DNA of 64,000 bases from Achromobacter spanius (GTDB lineage Bacteria > Pseudomonadota > Gammaproteobacteria > Burkholderiales > Burkholderiaceae_B): contig NZ_CP121261.1 in the NCBI RefSeq assembly GCF_029637605.1, positions 2,914,001 to 2,978,000 on the forward strand, read 5' to 3'. A program made the position numbers and the translations under genes. The notes under the pieces are model-generated. The model was not told the origin of the DNA and made no database searches. It worked only from the letters and a program-made list of their open reading frames with translations. This document shows positions 53,419 to 61,480 of this stretch, piece after piece. How positions within the stretch are numbered: position 1 is the first letter of the stretch; each line of letters opens with the position of its first letter.

Positions 53419-56172
53419 CTACACCGGTTGCCGTGCCTGACATATGTCCACTCGTGTCGAGGCGCGGGCGATCAACGCGCGCACTTCGGGCACGCAGGAA
53501 CCGCAACCCGTGCCGCATCCCAAGGTGGACTTCAGCCCGTCCAGATCGCATCCGCGCGCAATGCCCGCCAGGATCGCGGACTCGCTGACGCCGATGCATG
53601 CGCAAACCGTACGCGATCGCGCCGGCCCGCTGATGCGCCCCGCCAGCAAGGCGGACACGCTGGCGGGCGCCTTGCCGCCAGCGGCCCAGGACAGCAAGGC
53701 GTCCTGCGCCCGCAGGTCCCCCGCCAGCAGGAAAGCGCGCAGGCCGCCCTCGGCCACCGCCACCCGGCGCAGCTTGCCTTGCGCCAGGTCATCGAACACC
53801 ACGTCGGCCTGGCAAAGATCCAGCGACTGCGCCAATTCGGCGAGCACGTCGTTGTCTGGCGCCTGCGCCGCGGCCACGCGAATGCGCACGCCGCCCGCGC
53901 TGGATGGCAACACCACCGCGTAGTCAAAGCGGCGCAGCCAGGGCGCCAGGCGCGCGCGCAAGGCCACCGAGTCGCCTTGTAGCCAGCCTGACGCCTGCCA
54001 GGGCAGCGCGGCGGGTTCAACGGCAACGGCGCTGAATTTCAATTCGGGCTGGCGCGAAAAGGGATCCGTGGCCGGACTGGCCAGCGCGTTCACGCCCAGG
54101 CCCGCCATGTAGGCGCTGCCCCAATGCATGGGCAAGAAGGCGTGACCGCGTTGCAGCCCTTCGTCCGCCTGCACGGGTAGCACCACACTGCCCCGCCGCG
54201 AACGCAGCCGAGCCAGGGCGCCCGACGCCAGACCCAGCCGCTGCAAAGTATCAGGATGCAGAGACAGCCACGGCTCTTCAACATGCTGCGTCAATACGCG
54301 CGCTAACGACGTGCGCGCCATCGTGTGCCAGTGGTCGCGCAAACGGCCGGTCGTCAGCGGCATGGGGAAGTCTGGCGTGAGCGCGTCGGCGGGCGGTAGA
54401 TAGCGCACATCGCAAAATCGCGCGCGGCCGTTGGGGGTGGGAAACGCGCCGTCGGCGTAGAGGCGCGCCGTGCCCTGCCCCGCCCGATAGGGCCACTGCT
54501 GCGGGCCATCCCGATCCAGGATGCCGTAGTCCAGCGCGCTGTAATCCAGATCGCGTCCGGCCGTCGTGCGGACGTGTTCCGCGAAGACTTCGCTTTCGTC
54601 GCGGTACGCAAACGCCGCTGCCTTGTCCGGCGCGATGCGGGCCGCCAGACGCTGCGCCACCGCCTGCGCCAGCCGCCAATCCGGCTGCGCATCGCCGGGC
54701 GGCGATACAGCGGCATGCACGCGGCTGACGCGGCGTTCGGAATTGGTGACCGTGCCCGATTTCTCGGGCCAGGTGGCGGCGGGCAGCACCAGGTCGGCGT
54801 AGGGCAGCGTCTCCGTGCCGGCAAAGGCCTCTTGCACGATCACGAACTCGGCTTGCTCCAAGGCCGCCCGCACGCGGGCCTGATCCGGCAGCGACTGCGC
54901 CGGGTTGGTTGCCGCAATCCACAGCACTTTCACGCGGCCCTCCAGCACGGCGTCGAAGAGCTCCAGTGCGGTGGCGCCCGGCGTGTCGGGCAGTCGGTCC
55001 ACGCCCCACAGCGCCGCGACCTCGGCGCGGTCCTGGGCCACAGCCGGGTCGCGGTGGCCCGGCAGTAATGTCGCCATGCCGCCAGCTTCGCGCCCGCCCA
55101 TGGCGTTGGGCTGGCCGGTCAGCGAAAACGGCCCCGCGCCCGGCTTGCCGATCTGACCGGTGGCCAGATGCAGGTGGATCAGCGCGGTGTTCTTGTCGGT
55201 GCCCTGGGTCGATTGGTTCAGGCCCATCGTGTAGAGCGACAGCGCCGCGCCGCCGCTTCCGAACCAGCGCGCGGCCTGGATGATGTCGGCGGCCGGCACG
55301 CCGCAAATGTCCTGCACCACGGTCGGGGGATACGCTTCCACGGTATGCATCAGCGTGTCAAAGCCGTCGGTATGGCGGTCGATGTAGGCCCGGTTGATCC
55401 GTCCTTCGCGCACCATCACGTGCAACATGGCATGAAAAAGCGCCACGTCCGTGCCCGGTGCGATGGGCAGGTGCAAGTCAGCGAACGCGGCGGTATCCGT
55501 GCGGCGGGGGTCCACCACGATCACCTTCATGCCGGGCCGGCGCGCGCGGGCCGCTTCCAGGCGGCGAAACAGCACGGGGTGGGCGTACGCCATGTTGGAA
55601 CCGGCGATCAGCACGGTGTCGGCCAGGTCCAGGTCGTCGTAGCAGGCGGGCGGCGCATCCGCGCCCAGGGTGCGCTTGTAGCCGGACACCGCGCTGGACA
55701 TGCACAGCCTGGAATTGGTGTCGATATTGTTGGTGCCGGCCAGCGCGCGCGCCAGCTTGTTGAAGACGGCGTAGTCTTCGGTCAGCAACTGGCCCGACAG
55801 GTAAAACCCTAAGGCGTCCGGCCCGTGCGTCAGTATCGTATCGGCCAGCTTTTGCGCCGCGATGTCCAGTGCTTGATCCAGGGCAATGTCCTGATGCGCC
55901 GCGCCGCGTGACTCGCGCCATTGCGCCGACAGCACGCGCGCGCCGTCTCGCCGCACCGTGTCGGCCAGGGCCAGGCCCTTGCTGCACAGCTTGCCGTGAT
56001 TGGCGGGATGATCTTCATCGCCACGCACCCGCAGCACCGCGCCGTCGCGCACCTGCACGCGCACGCCGCATCCCGTGCCGCAATAGCAGCAGACCGAACG
56101 CAGCTCGCGATCGCCCTCATGCGCGCCGCCCTCATTCGACAGCGGCACGATCCTGCGCAACGGCATGTCCAT
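53419..56172 (-). CDS. nasA: NasA, assimilatory nitrate reductase catalytic subunit
   Basis: A 917-residue molybdopterin enzyme reducing nitrate to nitrite in the cytoplasm. The N-terminal 4Fe-4S motif is C-x2-C-x3-C with the fourth Cys in HGKLCSKG (Cys28, 31, 35, 63). Mo-bis-MGD domains fill residues about 60-790, e.g. STQGTDKNTALIHLHLATGQIGKPGAGPF and QPNAMGGREAGGMATLLPG. The C-terminus is a BFD-like 2Fe-2S domain with CACIG and GCGTGCGSCVPEVRALI, typical of NADH-linked NasA. It is last in the nrt-FAD-nasA operon. It needs Mo cofactor (mog at 21 kb). Confidence 0.94.
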   Translation of the reverse strand: MDMPLRRIVPLSNEGGAHEGDRELRSVCCYCGTGCGVRVQVRDGAVLRVRGDEDHPANHGKLCSKGLALADTVRRDGARVLSAQWRESRGAAHQDIALDQALDIAAQKLADTILTHGPDALGFYLSGQLLTEDYAVFNKLARALAGTNNIDTNSRLCMSSAVSGYKRTLGADAPPACYDDLDLADTVLIAGSNMAYAHPVLFRRLEAARARRPGMKVIVVDPRRTDTAAFADLHLPIAPGTDVALFHAMLHVMVREGRINRAYIDRHTDGFDTLMHTVEAYPPTVVQDICGVPAADIIQAARWFGSGGAALSLYTMGLNQSTQGTDKNTALIHLHLATGQIGKPGAGPFSLTGQPNAMGGREAGGMATLLPGHRDPAVAQDRAEVAALWGVDRLPDTPGATALELFDAVLEGRVKVLWIAATNPAQSLPDQARVRAALEQAEFVIVQEAFAGTETLPYADLVLPAATWPEKSGTVTNSERRVSRVHAAVSPPGDAQPDWRLAQAVAQRLAARIAPDKAAAFAYRDESEVFAEHVRTTAGRDLDYSALDYGILDRDGPQQWPYRAGQGTARLYADGAFPTPNGRARFCDVRYLPPADALTPDFPMPLTTGRLRDHWHTMARTSLARVLTQHVEEPWLSLHPDTLQRLGLASGALARLRSRRGSVVLPVQADEGLQRGHAFLPMHWGSAYMAGLGVNALASPATDPFSRQPELKFSAVAVEPAALPWQASGWLQGDSVALRARLAPWLRRFDYAVVLPSSAGGVRIRVAAAQAPDNDVLAELAQSLDLCQADVVFDDLAQGKLRRVAVAEGGLRAFLLAGDLRAQDALLSWAAGGKAPASVSALLAGRISGPARSRTVCACIGVSESAILAGIARGCDLDGLKSTLGCGTGCGSCVPEVRALIARASTRVDICQARQPV

Positions 56173-56175
56173 GGT

Positions 56176-57441
56176 TTATCCGCCCGCCGCCGCGTTCTCA
56201 AGCCCATCACCGGCGAACTCACCCGCCATCAACTGATCGCGCAGCGCGCCAATGCCCTGCCCTTCGCGCATCAAGCGCACATACCAACTGCTGTCGGCCG
56301 TGTCGCCATACAGGCACGCGCCCACCAGCTTGTCGTCGCTGATCACCAGCTTCTTGTAGACACCGTCCAGCGCATCAGCCAGCACGATCGTCTCGGTGTG
56401 CGCGCCGCCCGTGAAGTCCCCGGCTGAAAACAGGTCGATGCCCGTCACCTTCAGTTTCGTGGACGTGATGCTGCCTTCGTATCGGCCTATGCCATGCATG
56501 GCCAGATGATTGGCGGCCACCTTCGCCTGCTCGAACAAGGGCGCGACCAGGCCATAGGCCGTGCCACGATGGCTGACGCATTCGCCCACCGCGTAGATGC
56601 GCGGGTCATAGGTCTGCAAGGTATCGGTCACCACGATGCCGCGATCCACCCGCAAGCCGCAGCTTTCCGCCAGCGCCGTATTCGGCCGCACGCCCACCGC
56701 CATCACCACCAGGTCCGCTGGCACTTCCGCGCCATCCGCAAACCGCAGCGCGCGCACGCGTCCATCGTCGCCCGCGACGATCTCGCGGGTCTGGCGTTGC
56801 AGCAGGAAAGTCAGGCCGCGCGCCTCCAGGCTGCGCCGCAACAGCGCGGCCGCTTCAAGATCCAACTGGCGGTCCAGCAATGCCGCGCCCAGATGCACCA
56901 CCGATACGTTCATGCCTCGGGCGGCCAGGCCATTGGCGGCTTCCAGGCCCAGCAACCCGCCGCCGATCACCACCGCGTTGCGGTAGCGCGACGACGCCTC
57001 GATCATCCGGTTCACATCGTCGATATCGCGAAACGCGACCACGCCGTCCAGGTCGTGGCCCGGCACCGGCAGGATGGTCGGGTTCGACCCCGTGGCCAGC
57101 AGCAGGCGGTCATAGGCGGCTTCGGTGCCATCGTCGCAATGCACTCGGCGGCGCCCCCGATCCACCCGCGTGACCTTGCGGTTGCACAGCAGCCGGATGC
57201 CGTGCCGCGCATACCAGGCTTCATCGTTCAGCATGATGTCCTGCAAGGTCTGCTCCCCGGTCAGCACCGGGGACAGCAGGATGCGGTTGTAGTTGGTGTA
57301 GGGCTCGGCGCCGATCACCGTGATGTCGTAGAGCTCGGGCGCCTGCGCCAGCAGCTCTTCCACCGTGCGGATACCGGCCATGCCGTTGCCCACCACCACC
57401 AGCCTGGGCTTGGCGCCCGTGTTGGGTGTCGTCGCGCCCAT
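56176..57441 (-). CDS. FAD/NAD(P)-dependent oxidoreductase, NirB N-terminal-like (nitrate reductase electron donor)
   Basis: A 421-residue FAD protein aligned with the N-terminal part of NirB: RLVVVGNGMAGIRTVEELL at the FAD site, TVIGAEPYTNYNRILLSPVLTG, the NAD site RNAVVIGGGLLGLEAANGL, and TDTLQTYDPRIYAVGECVSHRG. It ends before the Fe-S and siroheme domains of NirB, so it cannot reduce nitrite itself. It most likely passes electrons from NAD(P)H to the 2Fe-2S domain of NasA, 3 bp downstream. The gene name varies between organisms, so none is given. Confidence 0.87.
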   Translation of the reverse strand: MGATTPNTGAKPRLVVVGNGMAGIRTVEELLAQAPELYDITVIGAEPYTNYNRILLSPVLTGEQTLQDIMLNDEAWYARHGIRLLCNRKVTRVDRGRRRVHCDDGTEAAYDRLLLATGSNPTILPVPGHDLDGVVAFRDIDDVNRMIEASSRYRNAVVIGGGLLGLEAANGLAARGMNVSVVHLGAALLDRQLDLEAAALLRRSLEARGLTFLLQRQTREIVAGDDGRVRALRFADGAEVPADLVVMAVGVRPNTALAESCGLRVDRGIVVTDTLQTYDPRIYAVGECVSHRGTAYGLVAPLFEQAKVAANHLAMHGIGRYEGSITSTKLKVTGIDLFSAGDFTGGAHTETIVLADALDGVYKKLVISDDKLVGACLYGDTADSSWYVRLMREGQGIGALRDQLMAGEFAGDGLENAAAGG

Positions 57442-57461
57442 GTGCTCTCCTGTGCCGCCGT

Positions 57462-58340
57462 TCAGGCGACGGCGCGAACGGCGTCGTCGCGGGATTCCAA
57501 GGCCTCGGCTTCGCGTTCCAGTTCGGCGTTGATATCAGCGGCGGCTTGCGAACGTTCCGGGTTGCCATGGCGGCGATGCAGGAAGTCCACGACCGACGCG
57601 CGGCAGGCCAGATACATGGCGTCGTTGGCCAGCCGCACGCGGTCACGCGGGCGCGGCAAAGGCACGGACAGGATGTCGCCAATGGTGGCGGCCGGGCCGT
57701 TGGTCAGCATGACGATGCGGTCGGACAGCAGCACGGCCTCGTCCACGTCGTGCGTGACCATGATGGTGGTGGTGCGCGTCTTGGCCACGATCTTCAGCAG
57801 CTCGTCCTGCAGATGCGCGCGCGTCAACGCATCCAACGCGCCAAAGGGTTCGTCCATGAGCAGCACGCCGGGCTCAATGGCCAAGGCGCGCGCGATGCCC
57901 ACGCGCTGCTTCATGCCGCCTGAAATTTCACGCGGCAGTTTGTTTTGCGCTGGCAGCAGCCCCACCAGTTCAAGCGCCGCCCGCGTGCGCTGCTCCAGTT
58001 GCGGGCGCTTTTCCGTGGAACCGAACACGCGCTCCACCGCCAGGTAAACGTTCTGGAAGCACGTGAGCCAAGGCAGCAACGAATGGTTCTGGAACACCAC
58101 AGCGCGGTCGGGACCGGGCCCGGTGATCTCGCGCTCGGCGCACAGCAGCACGCCACGGCTTGGCCGGGTCAAGCCCGCGATCAAATTCAACAAGGTCGAT
58201 TTGCCGCAGCCGGAATGGCCGATCAGGGTAATGAACTCCCCCTGCTCGACCGTCAGGTCGATATCGCGCAGCGCCACGAAGTCGCCCTTGCGGGTGTGGA
58301 AGGTCTGGCCCACGTTTTCGATGCGAACGAATTTCTTCAT
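57462..58340 (-). CDS. nrtD: Nitrate ABC transporter ATP-binding protein
   Basis: A 292-residue ATPase for nitrate/nitrite uptake, the NrtD/NasD type. Walker A GHSGCGKST near residue 42, Q-loop VFQNHSLLPWLT, signature ISGGMKQRVGIARAL and Walker B VLLMDEPFGALD are present. The start at 58340 (MKKFVRIENVG) leaves 4 bp after the permease stop and discards an out-of-place upstream stretch. Cytoplasmic face of the NrtABD transporter. Confidence 0.9.
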   Translation of the reverse strand: MKKFVRIENVGQTFHTRKGDFVALRDIDLTVEQGEFITLIGHSGCGKSTLLNLIAGLTRPSRGVLLCAEREITGPGPDRAVVFQNHSLLPWLTCFQNVYLAVERVFGSTEKRPQLEQRTRAALELVGLLPAQNKLPREISGGMKQRVGIARALAIEPGVLLMDEPFGALDALTRAHLQDELLKIVAKTRTTTIMVTHDVDEAVLLSDRIVMLTNGPAATIGDILSVPLPRPRDRVRLANDAMYLACRASVVDFLHRRHGNPERSQAAADINAELEREAEALESRDDAVRAVA

Positions 58341-58344
58341 GGCG

Positions 58345-59178
58345 CTATTCCTCGGTGTAGGTGAAGCGGCGGGCCAGGGCCACCAACAGGGTTTCCAACA
58401 GCAAGCCCACAATGCCGATTAGAAAAATGGCAATGACGATGTGCTCGACCTTCAGGTTGTTCCATTCATCCCACAGCCAGAAGCCGATACCCGTGCCCCC
58501 GGTCAGCATTTCGGCTGCCACGATCACCAGCCAGGCGGTGCCGATGGACAGGCGCACGCCCGTCAGCACATAGGGCAGCACGGCGGGCAGCAGCACTTTC
58601 GTGGTCAGCTTCCATTCGGACAGGTTCAGCACCCGCGCCACGTTCAGGTAGTCCTGCGGCACGCGCGACACGCCCACCGCGGTATTGATGATCATCGGCC
58701 AGATCGAACAGATGAAAATCGCCCAGATCGCGGCAGGGTCCGCGGCCTTGAACAGCAGCAGCCCCAGCGGCAGCCAGGCCAGCGGCGACACCGGCCGCAA
58801 CAGGCTGACGATGGGGGAGAACATGGCGTTGATGGCGGCATAGCGCCCGATGGCGAAGCCCGCGGGAATACCGATCACCGCCGCCAGGCCAAAGCCGATG
58901 GCCACGCGCTCCAGCGAGGCCACAAGGTTCCAGCCTATGCCCTTGTCGTTGGGGCCGTTGTCGTAGAACGGGTCGGAAAACAGCGTCACGGCGGCATGCC
59001 AGGTCACCCCCGGCGTGGGGATCTCTGGAATCTGCATCGCGATCACCTGCCACATCAGCACAAACAACGCGAAGCCGGCCACCGGTCCGGCCACGGCTTT
59101 CAGCGCGGATTCCAGTTTCTCGCGGCCAGCGGCAACCAGTGCTTCGCCGCGGCCCACAGTCGTTACGGTAGAAGTCAT
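58345..59178 (-). CDS. nrtB: Nitrate ABC transporter permease
   Basis: A 277-residue permease of the NrtB/SsuC type. Membrane segments include VAGFALFVLMWQVIAMQI, VAIGFGLAAVIGIPAGFAIG, AIWAIFICSIWPMIINTAVG and VIAIFLIGIVGLLLETLLVAL. The EAA loop VPQDYLNVARVLNLSEWKLTTKVLLPAVLPYVLTG lies between. The ATG at 59178 is chosen because the upstream frame overlaps the binding-protein gene. Confidence 0.9.
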   Translation of the reverse strand: MTSTVTTVGRGEALVAAGREKLESALKAVAGPVAGFALFVLMWQVIAMQIPEIPTPGVTWHAAVTLFSDPFYDNGPNDKGIGWNLVASLERVAIGFGLAAVIGIPAGFAIGRYAAINAMFSPIVSLLRPVSPLAWLPLGLLLFKAADPAAIWAIFICSIWPMIINTAVGVSRVPQDYLNVARVLNLSEWKLTTKVLLPAVLPYVLTGVRLSIGTAWLVIVAAEMLTGGTGIGFWLWDEWNNLKVEHIVIAIFLIGIVGLLLETLLVALARRFTYTEE

Positions 59179-59203
59179 AGCAAGCCCTCTTGTGGTTTTC
59201 CGG

Positions 59204-60505
59204 TCAGACCTTGACCTTGAATCCGTCGGCATAGGCCGCCGGGTTGCTGCCGTCCCACTTCACCCCGTCGATCAGCGTTGACGTGCGCGTTTCGCTGGTG
59301 GGCAGCGCCACGCCCGCGGCTTGCGCGGCCTGCTTGTAGAGGTCGATGCGGTTGATCTGCTTGGCCACCGCCAGGTAGTCCGGGTGCTCTTTCAAGAGGC
59401 CCCAGCGCTTGTGCTGCGTCAGGAACCACATGCCGTCGCTCAGGTACGGAAAGTTGGCCGATCCGTCGGCGTAAAAGCGCATGGCGTGCTCGTCCGTCCA
59501 GGTCTTGCCCAGGCCGTCCTGGTACTTGCCCAGCATGCGGTCCACGATGCCACTGGCGTCCGTGTTCACGTAGGACTTGGCGGCGATGGTTTCGGCCGTC
59601 TTCTGACGGTTGGCGGGCGAGGCGTCGATCCACTTGCCGGCCTCGAGGATGGCCGCGGTGACGGCGCGCGCCGTGTTCGGATTGCGCGCCACGAAATCCG
59701 CGCTGGTACCCAGCACCTTTTCGGGATGGTCCTGCCAGATGTCCTGCGAGGTCACGGCGGTAAAGCCGATCTTGTCCATGATGGTGCGCGCGCCCCAGGG
59801 CTCGCCCACGCAGAAGCCGTCCATATTGCCCACGCGCATGTTCGCCACCATCTGGGGCGGCGGCACGGTGATGACCTTGGCGTCTTTCATCGGGTTGATG
59901 CCATAGGCGGCCAGCCAGTAATACAGCCACATGGCGTGCGTGCCGGTCGGGAAGGTCTGCGCGAAGGTGTATTCGCGCTTGTCCGACGCCATCAGCTTGG
60001 CCAGCGATTCGCCGTCGCGCGCCCCACCTTCCAACACCTTGTTCGATAGCGAGATCGCCTGGCCGTTCTGATTCAGGCTCATCAAGACCGCCATGTCCTT
60101 CTTGGGGCCGCCGATGCCCAGGTGCACGCCGTACACCAGCCCATACAGCACGTGCGCCATATCGAGCTCGCCGTTCAGCAGCTTGTCGCGCACGGCCGCC
60201 CACGAGGCTTCCTTGGAAGGCGTGATGGTCACGCCGTATTTCTTGTCGATGCCCAGCACCGACGCCATCACCACCGATGCGCAATCGGTCAGTGGAATAA
60301 AGCCGATCTTCACCTCGGTCTTTTCCGGCGCGTCCGTGCCGGCCGCCCAGGCGCCGGCGCGCACCAGCGGATCAACCAGAGACAGCAGGCCGGCGCCCGC
60401 CACCGCGCGCGCCGTACCGCTCAACCACTTGCGGCGGCTGGCATTGGCACCCGCGTCCGCATGGGGGGCAAGGTCGGATGAGGGGCTACGTTGTACTGGC
60501 GTCAT
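59204..60505 (-). CDS. nrtA: NrtA-like nitrate-binding protein with Tat signal
   Basis: A 433-residue binding protein of the CmpA/NrtA family. A twin-arginine signal (NASRRKWLSGTARAVAGAGLLS) is followed by EKTEVKIGFIPLTDCASVVMASVLGIDKKYGV, the binding-lobe motif of this group, and VNTDASGIVDRMLGKYQDGLGKTW. It delivers nitrate to NrtBD. First gene of the operon, directly downstream of a terminator-containing leader. Tat export instead of a lipoprotein signal is usual in proteobacterial members. Confidence 0.92.
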   Translation of the reverse strand: MTPVQRSPSSDLAPHADAGANASRRKWLSGTARAVAGAGLLSLVDPLVRAGAWAAGTDAPEKTEVKIGFIPLTDCASVVMASVLGIDKKYGVTITPSKEASWAAVRDKLLNGELDMAHVLYGLVYGVHLGIGGPKKDMAVLMSLNQNGQAISLSNKVLEGGARDGESLAKLMASDKREYTFAQTFPTGTHAMWLYYWLAAYGINPMKDAKVITVPPPQMVANMRVGNMDGFCVGEPWGARTIMDKIGFTAVTSQDIWQDHPEKVLGTSADFVARNPNTARAVTAAILEAGKWIDASPANRQKTAETIAAKSYVNTDASGIVDRMLGKYQDGLGKTWTDEHAMRFYADGSANFPYLSDGMWFLTQHKRWGLLKEHPDYLAVAKQINRIDLYKQAAQAAGVALPTSETRTSTLIDGVKWDGSNPAAYADGFKVKV

Positions 60506-60520
60506 GCATGGCTCCTGGCA

Positions 60521-60573
60521 AAAAAAAACGTCCCGCGCGCCATGGAACCCAGTCCATTGGCGCAGCGGAACGT
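60521..60573 (-). terminator. Leader terminator of nrtABD-FAD-nasA (NasT antitermination candidate)
   Basis: On the minus strand ACGTTCCGCTGCGCCAATGG pairs with CCATGGCGCGCGGGACGT (two single-base bulges), followed by at least eight T residues, 15 bases before the nrtA ATG. A terminator inside the leader would block the operon unless relieved. An upstream hairpin GCCGC-ACTAC-GCGGC (60586-60600) could be part of an antiterminator. The upper stem can also close as ATGGA-hexaloop-TCCAT, resembling ANTAR-target hexaloops in size, but its first base is C rather than the conserved A. Confidence 0.72.
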
Positions 60574-60641
60574 CGTTGTCCCTTGCCGCGTAGTGCGGCG
60601 CGTTGCGTCGGCGACCGCCGTTGGCCGCCCGATATCACTCA

Positions 60642-60658
60642 AGCAAACGCTGTGCCAG
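60642..60658 (-). promoter_or_regulatory. Sigma-54 promoter of the nrtABD-FAD-nasA operon
   Basis: On the minus strand CTGGCACAGCGTTTGCT matches the RpoN consensus YTGGCACGRNNNTTGCW at 16 of 17 positions, with the invariant GG and GC exactly ten bases apart. The predicted start is near 60631, giving a leader of about 125 nt that includes the terminator. Confidence 0.8.
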
Positions 60659-60755
60659 GCGCGTGGAAAATGCCCCTGAACACCCGGCAGGCCGCGCCGG
60701 CATTGGCGTTGCGATGAATCACGCATCACCGCGGCGTTGCCACCGTGTGCGCGGC

Positions 60756-60772
60756 GGAACCAAGTTGGTGCG
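60756..60772. promoter_or_regulatory. NtrC-binding site 1 (candidate)
   Basis: The 17-mer with half-sites ACCAA and TTGGTGC matches the NtrC consensus TGCACYAAAWTGGTGCA at about 13 positions. It lies about 130 bp upstream of the sigma-54 start of the nrt operon and about 120 bp from that of nasT, suitable for activation by looping in either direction. Confidence 0.6.
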
Positions 60773-60788
60773 CAATGCGTTGCGGCGG

Positions 60789-60805
60789 CGCACCAACGCT
60801 GTGCC
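60789..60805. promoter_or_regulatory. NtrC-binding site 2 (candidate)
   Basis: GCAC-N7-GTGC core (GCACCAACGCTGTGC, 60790-60804), about 11 of 17 consensus bases. Its centre is 33 bp from that of site 1, three helical turns, so two NtrC dimers would lie on the same face of the DNA, as at glnA enhancers. Confidence 0.5.
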
Positions 60806-60857
60806 GTCCACGCCCTGCCGCTGTGCGCGGCAAACTCGCCGCGCGTGCAATCCGGGA

Positions 60858-60873
60858 TGGCATGGAACTTGCA
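60858..60873 (+). promoter_or_regulatory. Sigma-54 promoter of nasT
   Basis: TGGCATGGAACTTGCA matches the RpoN pattern TGGCAC-N5-TTGCW with one mismatch (T for C) and the required GG-N10-GC spacing. The start would be near 60884, 15 bases before the nasT ATG, which has GGGGGGA as ribosome site. Confidence 0.65.
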
Positions 60874-60898
60874 TGCACGACAGCATCGGGGGGATCAC

Positions 60899-61480
60899 AT
60901 GCTGAAGGTCATGCTGCTGAATGATGGCGAGGGACGCGCGGCGTCGCTGCGGCAAACGCTTGCCGCGGCCGGCGTACACGTGGTCTCGGAAGTGGCCCCC
61001 GGCACCGACCTGGCCACCGCCATCGCCCAGGCCGCCCCGGACGTGGTGCTGATCGACAGCGACGCCCCCGGGCGCGACACCCTGGAAAACGTCTGTGTGG
61101 CCAGCGCGCACAGTGATCGGCCAGTGGTGATGTTCACCGATGACGGCAACCGCGACACCATCCGCACCGCGTTGCGCGCGGGCGTGGCCGCATATGTGGT
61201 GGGCGACGTGTCGGCCGCCCGCATCGAACCCCTGCTGACCGTGGCGATTGAACGCTTCGCCATGGAAAAGTCGCGGCGCGAGGAACTGCGCGACGCGCAA
61301 CTGCGGCTGGCCGAGCGCCAGTGGGTGGAAAAGGCCAAGGGCATCTTGATGAAGACGCGCTCGATTCCGGAAGAGGAAGCGCACCGGCTATTGCGTGACC
61401 GCGCCATGCAAAGCCAGAAGCGGTTGGGCGAGGTGGCCCGCGAAGTCGTCGAAATGAGCCAATGGTTGGGCAGCGCCTGA
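60899..61480 (+). CDS. nasT: NasT, ANTAR-domain antitermination response regulator
   Basis: A 193-residue protein with an N-terminal receiver-like domain (MLKVMLLNDGEGRAASLRQTL; VVLIDSDAPGRDTLENV holds the Asp-containing region) and a C-terminal ANTAR domain (ERQWVEKAKGILMKTRSIPEEEAHRLLRDRAMQSQKRLGEVAREV). ANTAR proteins bind paired hairpins in leader RNA and prevent termination. NasT normally acts with the nitrate sensor NasS; no NasS is adjacent, though the NrtA-like protein is of the same fold and might act in that role. Divergent from the nrt-nasA operon. Start chosen at MLKVMLLND. Confidence 0.9.
   Translation: MLKVMLLNDGEGRAASLRQTLAAAGVHVVSEVAPGTDLATAIAQAAPDVVLIDSDAPGRDTLENVCVASAHSDRPVVMFTDDGNRDTIRTALRAGVAAYVVGDVSAARIEPLLTVAIERFAMEKSRREELRDAQLRLAERQWVEKAKGILMKTRSIPEEEAHRLLRDRAMQSQKRLGEVAREVVEMSQWLGSA

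Follow-up and report, generated by a model that had tools for sequence, protein, structure and literature searches.

The 393-bp gap between nrtA and nasT in the window, by which we mean the whole 64,000-nucleotide stretch of Achromobacter spanius DNA that was analysed, probably serves as a shared nitrogen-limitation switch (we put the probability at roughly 0.8), in which NtrC would drive two divergent sigma-54 promoters and NasT would antiterminate the nrtA transcript. The gap runs from the ATG of nrtA (60505, minus strand) to that of nasT (60899, plus strand). On the minus strand, nrtA (59204–60505) encodes a nitrate ABC transporter binding protein (PF13379, 352 bits) with an N terminus of the twin-arginine type (RRKWL), and the rest of its operon comprises nrtB, nrtC, a gene for a nirB-like flavoprotein and nasA (53419–59232). 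The nirB-like gene (56176–57441; 421 aa) corresponds to the FAD/NAD half of NirB only, covering positions 1–389 of a 794-position model. On the plus strand, nasT (60899–61480) encodes a 193-aa protein whose receiver and ANTAR domains (PF00072 and PF03861) both score over their cut-offs; no second close copy exists in the genome, where the next match stands at E 3e-6; nasT has a siroheme synthase gene on its 3' side, and its product is 82–93% identical to named relatives from Achromobacter and 70–77% identical to those from Bordetella and Verticiella. The genome also contains ntrC (TIGR01818, 668.6 bits in all including the neighbouring stretch, against a cut-off of 558.6) and two rpoN genes (G000:C1:1278609 and 4584693).

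We propose that nitrogen limitation would lead to phosphorylation of NtrC, which, bound at two phased sites, would activate both divergent sigma-54 promoters by looping either way. The minus promoter would yield an mRNA whose first bases fold as two hairpins, P1 and P2; left without a partner, this leader would end at a terminator (60520–60574). The plus promoter would supply NasT, which on P1–P2 would block the terminator and allow RNA polymerase into nrtABC, the nirB-like gene and nasA. NtrC would in this way have two effects on the operon, one at initiation and one via the antiterminator, in a coherent feed-forward loop. The sequence elements, their conservation, the covariation of the leader and the gene content are direct observations on this wiring; the use of NtrC and sigma-54 at the gap and the binding of NasT to the leader are what we infer from them.

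The sigma-54 -24/-12 promoter of the nrtA operon, CTGGCACAGCGTTTGCT (60642–60658, minus strand), agrees with the consensus YTGGCACGNNNNTTGCW at 12 of 13 specified bases; the 16/17 match given for it in the initial annotation holds when the N positions are counted. The promoter of nasT, ATGGCATGGAACTTGCA (60857–60873, plus strand), agrees at 11 of 13, and its conserved part, TGGCACGNNNNTTGCW, does carry the single mismatch that had been claimed, a C to T change. Between the two promoters lie NtrC-like site 1 (GAACC-N5-GGTGC; 60757–60771, centre 60764) and site 2 (GCACC-N5-TGTGC; 60790–60804, centre 60797), each scoring 9/10 and with centres 33 bp apart, again as first described. Sigma-54 scores refer to this consensus, and every NtrC-site score depends on the consensus GCACC-N5-GGTGC. 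The promoter positions predict transcription starts near 60631 for the nrtA operon and near 60884 for nasT; the predicted nasT leader, at only ~15 nt, is too short to hold a terminator.

To gauge chance, the 393-bp gap was subjected to 10,000 dinucleotide-preserving shuffles. A lone promoter score of at least 11, on either strand, appeared in 638 of these and is therefore not rare; such a score on each strand, in any order, appeared in 10, and an NtrC pair (both sites at least 9/10, 30–34 bp apart) in 2. None of the 10,000 held all four elements, so a chance origin of the set was ruled out, and the earlier judgement that their co-occurrence is unlikely to be accidental is borne out. The entire 64-kb window has five sigma-54 sites scoring at least 11 and eight NtrC sites scoring at least 9, two of each being the elements of the gap.

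These elements are retained throughout the genus. NasT is present in 24 of the 43 genus genomes searched, and the comparison comprises 23 of these loci, whose upstream region was found where expected, the 24th being cut by a contig end (its plus promoter is present). Both promoters (score at least 10) occur in all 23 loci, with GG-N10-GC kept in every minus promoter, and both NtrC sites (at least 8/10), 32 or 33 bp apart, occur in 22; site 1 is absent only in L049, while site 2 scores 9/10 in all 23. The plus promoter starts at -42 to -44 from the nasT ATG in 22 loci and at -55 in L049. Averaged over the 23 loci, the base found in the window has a share of 0.90 in the minus promoter, 0.91 in site 1, 0.82 in site 2, 0.88 in the nrtA leader and 0.96 in the plus promoter, the best conserved of the gap elements measured. 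The spacers have drifted, with mean shares of 0.45 between the minus promoter and site 1, 0.70 between the two sites and 0.60 between site 2 and the plus promoter. One part of the test set by the initial annotation, that the GG/GC and half-site bases be kept in close relatives, thus gave a positive result. Conserved promoters and NtrC sites, together with the ntrC and rpoN genes, make joint control of nasT and its target the best reading, and at the level of sequence they support the original proposal that nitrogen limitation would induce both operons and place NasT under the same control as its target. A third, weaker NtrC-like dyad (8/10) lies ~22 bp to the nasT side of site 2 in L033, L036, L037, L039–L041 and other genus loci; the window's own version scores below the cut-off of 8. 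One genus locus (L147, genome G035) has an in-frame TAG within its nrtA match.

The minus promoter appears to feed an ANTAR-type antitermination leader, to which NasT is predicted to bind. As described in PMC3369931 and PMC7496416, ANTAR proteins bind two hexaloop hairpins (A at position 1, G at position 4) upstream of a terminator. The minus-strand leader in the window has P1 (60610–60629, loop AACGGC) and P2 (60567–60582, loop AACGAC), both with A1 and G4 and both based on folding and covariation, followed by an intrinsic terminator hairpin and U run (60520–60574; -32.6 kcal/mol for the hairpin) that overlaps P2, which together are the features expected of an ANTAR leader. P1 starts two bases past the predicted +1, and a small extra hairpin (60585–60599) lies between P1 and P2 in the fold of the leader up to P2. 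Because the 5' arm of the terminator takes in the 3' arm of P2, the two structures are mutually exclusive. The leader fold has a z score of -2.82, and none of 200 shuffles was as stable.

The promoter and P1 together (60595–60656, minus strand) align over the full length of Rfam model RF03032, the narK RNA (39.1 bits, E 6.8e-6); the score lies below the gathering score of 43.2, so that the window leader is a near match and is not filed as a member of the family. The narK RNA was reportedly described in Weinberg 2017, and we know of no function for it. We read RF03032 as a sigma-54 promoter plus an ANTAR target. Model positions 1–15, GGCaCAgcucUUGCU, have the GG-N10-GC pattern of a sigma-54 -24/-12 element and would thus be promoter DNA, not RNA. 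The model's one annotated hairpin has the loop AACGGC, an A1/G4 hexaloop, and the consensus CGAC-AAAGAC-GUCG near the model end (~57–71), corresponding to P2 here, could form a second A1/G4 hexaloop that is absent from the Rfam structure line.

Matches to the narK RNA were found in 16 of 61 genomes, with the gathering cut-off reached in 4 of the 61, and in 46 of the 399 genomes of the order. We examined 44 of the 59 distinct match places, 29 outside the genus and 15 within it. Outside the genus, GG-N10-GC stands at the model start in 24 of 29 loci, including L089 and L091, which fit the promoter consensus poorly, with a better site further upstream for G513; the remaining 5 have a sigma-54-like string 12–45 nt upstream of the model start. 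Two A1/G4 hexaloop hairpins are present in 27 of these 29 loci (0.14 loci expected from shuffles) and in 14 of the 15 genus loci; the genus match at L027, which has no hexaloops, was taken as false.

Because the narK model itself selects for part of this pattern, leaders were also collected from nasT loci alone. A minus promoter was found by rule in 37 of 44 such loci and in none of the other 7. The resulting 37 leaders, chosen without the RNA model, contain both P1 and P2 in 34 cases (the by-rule search did not find P1 in L043 and L045 or P2 in L065), and 34 have a run of five T in range (none in L052, L065 and L070). The locus L065, in genome G117, keeps nasT, both promoters and P1 but lacks a second hexaloop by rule as well as an NrtA homologue at E <= 1e-40, and is perhaps a decaying locus. 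In the order we surveyed 73 nasT loci, hand-picked from 147 NasT-bearing genomes (a single locus per genus, or two or three in a few cases; the genus itself, g46 and fragmentary or weak matches were left out). The full unit of promoter, two hexaloops and U run occurs in 37 of the 73, although some of these carry unusual loops and could represent a different element, and in none of five shuffles per locus; the same rule did not detect it in 36.

An alignment of 17 leaders shows covariation in the pairing: 93.5% of pair cells are standard, and 8 of 11 pairs have changed on both sides. Its covariation score of 0.505 compares with 0.206 for shuffles, while slid versions do not exceed 0.148. Cells changed on both sides number 29 against a shuffle mean of 9.5, and 0 of 500 shuffles reached as many. 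Scanned with a model built from the 17 leaders, 10 genus genomes each gave a single strong leader (58–65 bits) and no further NasT targets, the next best hit scoring 23.1 bits; NasT would seem to have just this target in those genomes.

In the NasS–NasT system of Paracoccus, the cytoplasmic, NrtA-like NasS holds NasT until nitrate binds, and loss of nasS makes expression of the genes constitutive (PMC3795266); Bradyrhizobium loses nitrate control when NasS is missing (PMC4724949). The window's genome has the receiver-ANTAR NasT of such a system, and a cytoplasmic NasS was not found in it. We searched 68 genomes (E <= 1e-40), which define the scope of the genome-wide NasS search, with P0001, a NasS encoded beside nasT in the family member L081. 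No separate NasS homologue at this threshold was found in any of the 24 NasT-bearing genus genomes; the matches there are to NrtA at ~52% and, in 13 of the 24, to a second homologue at ~33%. In the window's genome this second homologue (L057) starts with an N terminus of the twin-arginine type, and the ORFs after it read by eye as permease and ATPase. PF13379 has 11 matches in the same genome, two of them above 91 bits (three NasS controls score 249–302 bits), and both of these proteins carry twin-arginine N termini; the eight N termini inspected all look exported, the three weakest matches (<=40.6 bits) lying outside the eight, and no cytoplasmic NrtA-like protein was seen in this genome by the PF13379 search. 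The RR motif is present in the NrtA beside nasT at all 23 readable genus loci.

L057 (G000:C1:2598000-2612000) also shows that the window's genome has a second nrtABC-like cluster (L057 1777–6726), upstream of which lie ORFs that by eye encode a histidine kinase and a NarL-type response regulator. There is no sigma-54 site of at least 11 before this cluster, the single one, at L057 7769, sitting inside another gene.

The 13 loci from other genera of the family that have a sigma-54 promoter before nasT come with no separate NasS homologue, and the 7 family loci without a plus promoter all belong to two genera with NasS-like genes in some members. The 73 order-level nasT neighbourhoods divide into 9 with an adjacent NasS, 47 with only an RR/KR-type NrtA, 5 with a signal-less NrtA-like gene elsewhere and 12 with none, a rough sorting by regular expression on ~60 residues before and around the match, within ~4 kb, in which L225 and possibly L198 are misplaced on reading by eye. 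A sigma-54 promoter before nasT was considered as a marker of NasS-free lineages and rejected, as it occurs in 5 of the 9 NasS-adjacent and 23 of the 47 NrtA-only loci. On the minus strand of L082 (G212), an NrtA-like domain and the transporter ATPase NrtC share one open frame, and this locus has no plus-strand sigma-54 site near nasT; fusion of an NrtA-like domain to NrtC is the layout of cyanobacterial NrtC.

Since NasS was not found, NasT would not be held back when nitrate is absent, and we suggest tentatively, at a little under even odds, that nitrogen limitation and not nitrate is the main input. We hold with the same reserve that the genus, and perhaps many Burkholderiales, use a NasS-free NasT in an NtrC feed-forward loop without nitrate input, of which the narK RNA would be the cis half. 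The wiring could also stay unchanged with NasT still gated by nitrate, if a different protein stood in for NasS (for instance NrtA awaiting export, the ATPase of the transporter or some unrelated sensor), so that the logic would remain nitrogen limitation AND nitrate. This alternative competes only with the no-nitrate-input step, and we consider it a serious one, if somewhat further from an even chance: it draws strength from the homology of NasS and NrtA (52% between P0001 and the window's NrtA), from the receiver domain retained in NasT and from nitrate gating being the rule in the studied systems (PMC3795266 and PMC4724949), and it is weakened by the lack of any visible cytoplasmic NrtA-like protein, as each of the two PF13379 matches that exceed 91 bits is of the twin-arginine type.

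The shared switch itself, with NtrC acting on both promoters, can be followed outside the genus with declining clarity. Of 20 loci read in the family's other genera, 13 have both promoters and 7 show no plus promoter near the nasT start; NtrC sites 31–33 bp apart accompany the promoters in 6 of the 13, with 7 lacking the pair. Both promoters are also present in 18 of 18 named loci of NasT relatives, a set that probably overlaps with the other genomes surveyed. Among 28 order-level narK loci (L109, at a contig end, was left out), a 9/10 NtrC site lies within 300 bp in 7 (0.7 expected) and a pair in 1; clear NtrC sites are thus scarce outside the genus and its nearest kin. That distant relatives retain the promoters and seldom have clear NtrC pairs, and that eight matches in the window's genome cover the AAA+ part of the NtrC model, would suit an arrangement with genuine sigma-54 promoters whose phased sites belong to a different enhancer-binding protein, such as NtrX or a relative of NifA; we judge this improbable, because half-sites that fit GCACC-N5-GGTGC and stand 31–33 bp apart are present at 22 of 23 genus loci and 6 of the 13 other-genus loci. 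Far less credible is a functional minus promoter alone, with the plus promoter a chance match and nasT transcribed from a sigma-70 promoter: a lone score of 11/13 is indeed not rare in shuffles, and a site of at least 11 at -80 to -20 is missing from 36 of the 73 order-level nasT loci, but the plus promoter is the most conserved of the gap elements measured and nearly fixed in position, and such sites do occur in the other 37 loci versus 12 of 1460 random windows.

The proposed joint control by NtrC and sigma-54 resembles several known arrangements. In the E. coli glnAp2 enhancer, two NtrC sites ~three helical turns apart lie upstream of a sigma-54 promoter; paired NtrC sites are common to both systems, whereas in the gap the pair sits between two divergent sigma-54 promoters. 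The Klebsiella oxytoca nasF promoter is under Ntr control; unlike nasF, the gap has two divergent promoters sharing one enhancer pair, and whereas NasR has its own nitrate-sensing NIT domain, the regulator here is a receiver-ANTAR protein. As proposed for the nrtA operon, nasF is governed by ANTAR antitermination, through NasR, at a two-hexaloop nitrate-operon leader (PMC3369931, PMC7496416), and nasR is induced by NtrBC, as cited in PMC5424462, which parallels the Ntr control of the regulator gene proposed here. The nasTS-nasABGHC system of Paracoccus denitrificans likewise has a NasT antiterminator and an NtrC-type site before nasT, mutation of which demonstrated NtrC control of nasT (PMC5424462). 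There, NasS adjoins and inhibits NasT, whereas here no NasS was found and the genes are divergent. Both layers of regulation, NtrC acting on nasT and ANTAR proteins acting on nitrate assimilation, are already published.

For narK itself, PMC4724949 reports that a Bradyrhizobium narK-lacZ fusion required NasT, and PMC6759348 predicts NasT-type hairpins in the Bradyrhizobium narK leader and finds the narK operon up, not down, in a nasT mutant under denitrifying conditions; NasT hairpins therefore do not always mean activation. Surveys predict 66 sigma-54 promoters before ANTAR genes, chiefly in beta- and gamma-proteobacteria (PMC12316311), and ANTAR targets in a set of genera that includes Burkholderia (PMC3369931). 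Our literature search, in a limited collection, did not find the shared-enhancer layout, the present reading of the narK RNA, any link between that RNA and ANTAR or a natural NasS-free NasT, and it returned nothing useful on nasT of Achromobacter and its kin.

With this reading, the narK RNA family gains a likely function, as a target of NasT and ANTAR proteins, and part of the Rfam model would appear to be promoter DNA. A NasT without a NasS partner is the situation that makes the nitrate genes nitrate-independent in nasS mutants of Paracoccus and Bradyrhizobium (PMC3795266, PMC4724949). If the same holds here, nitrate assimilation would be expressed on nitrogen limitation alone in bacteria of this genus.
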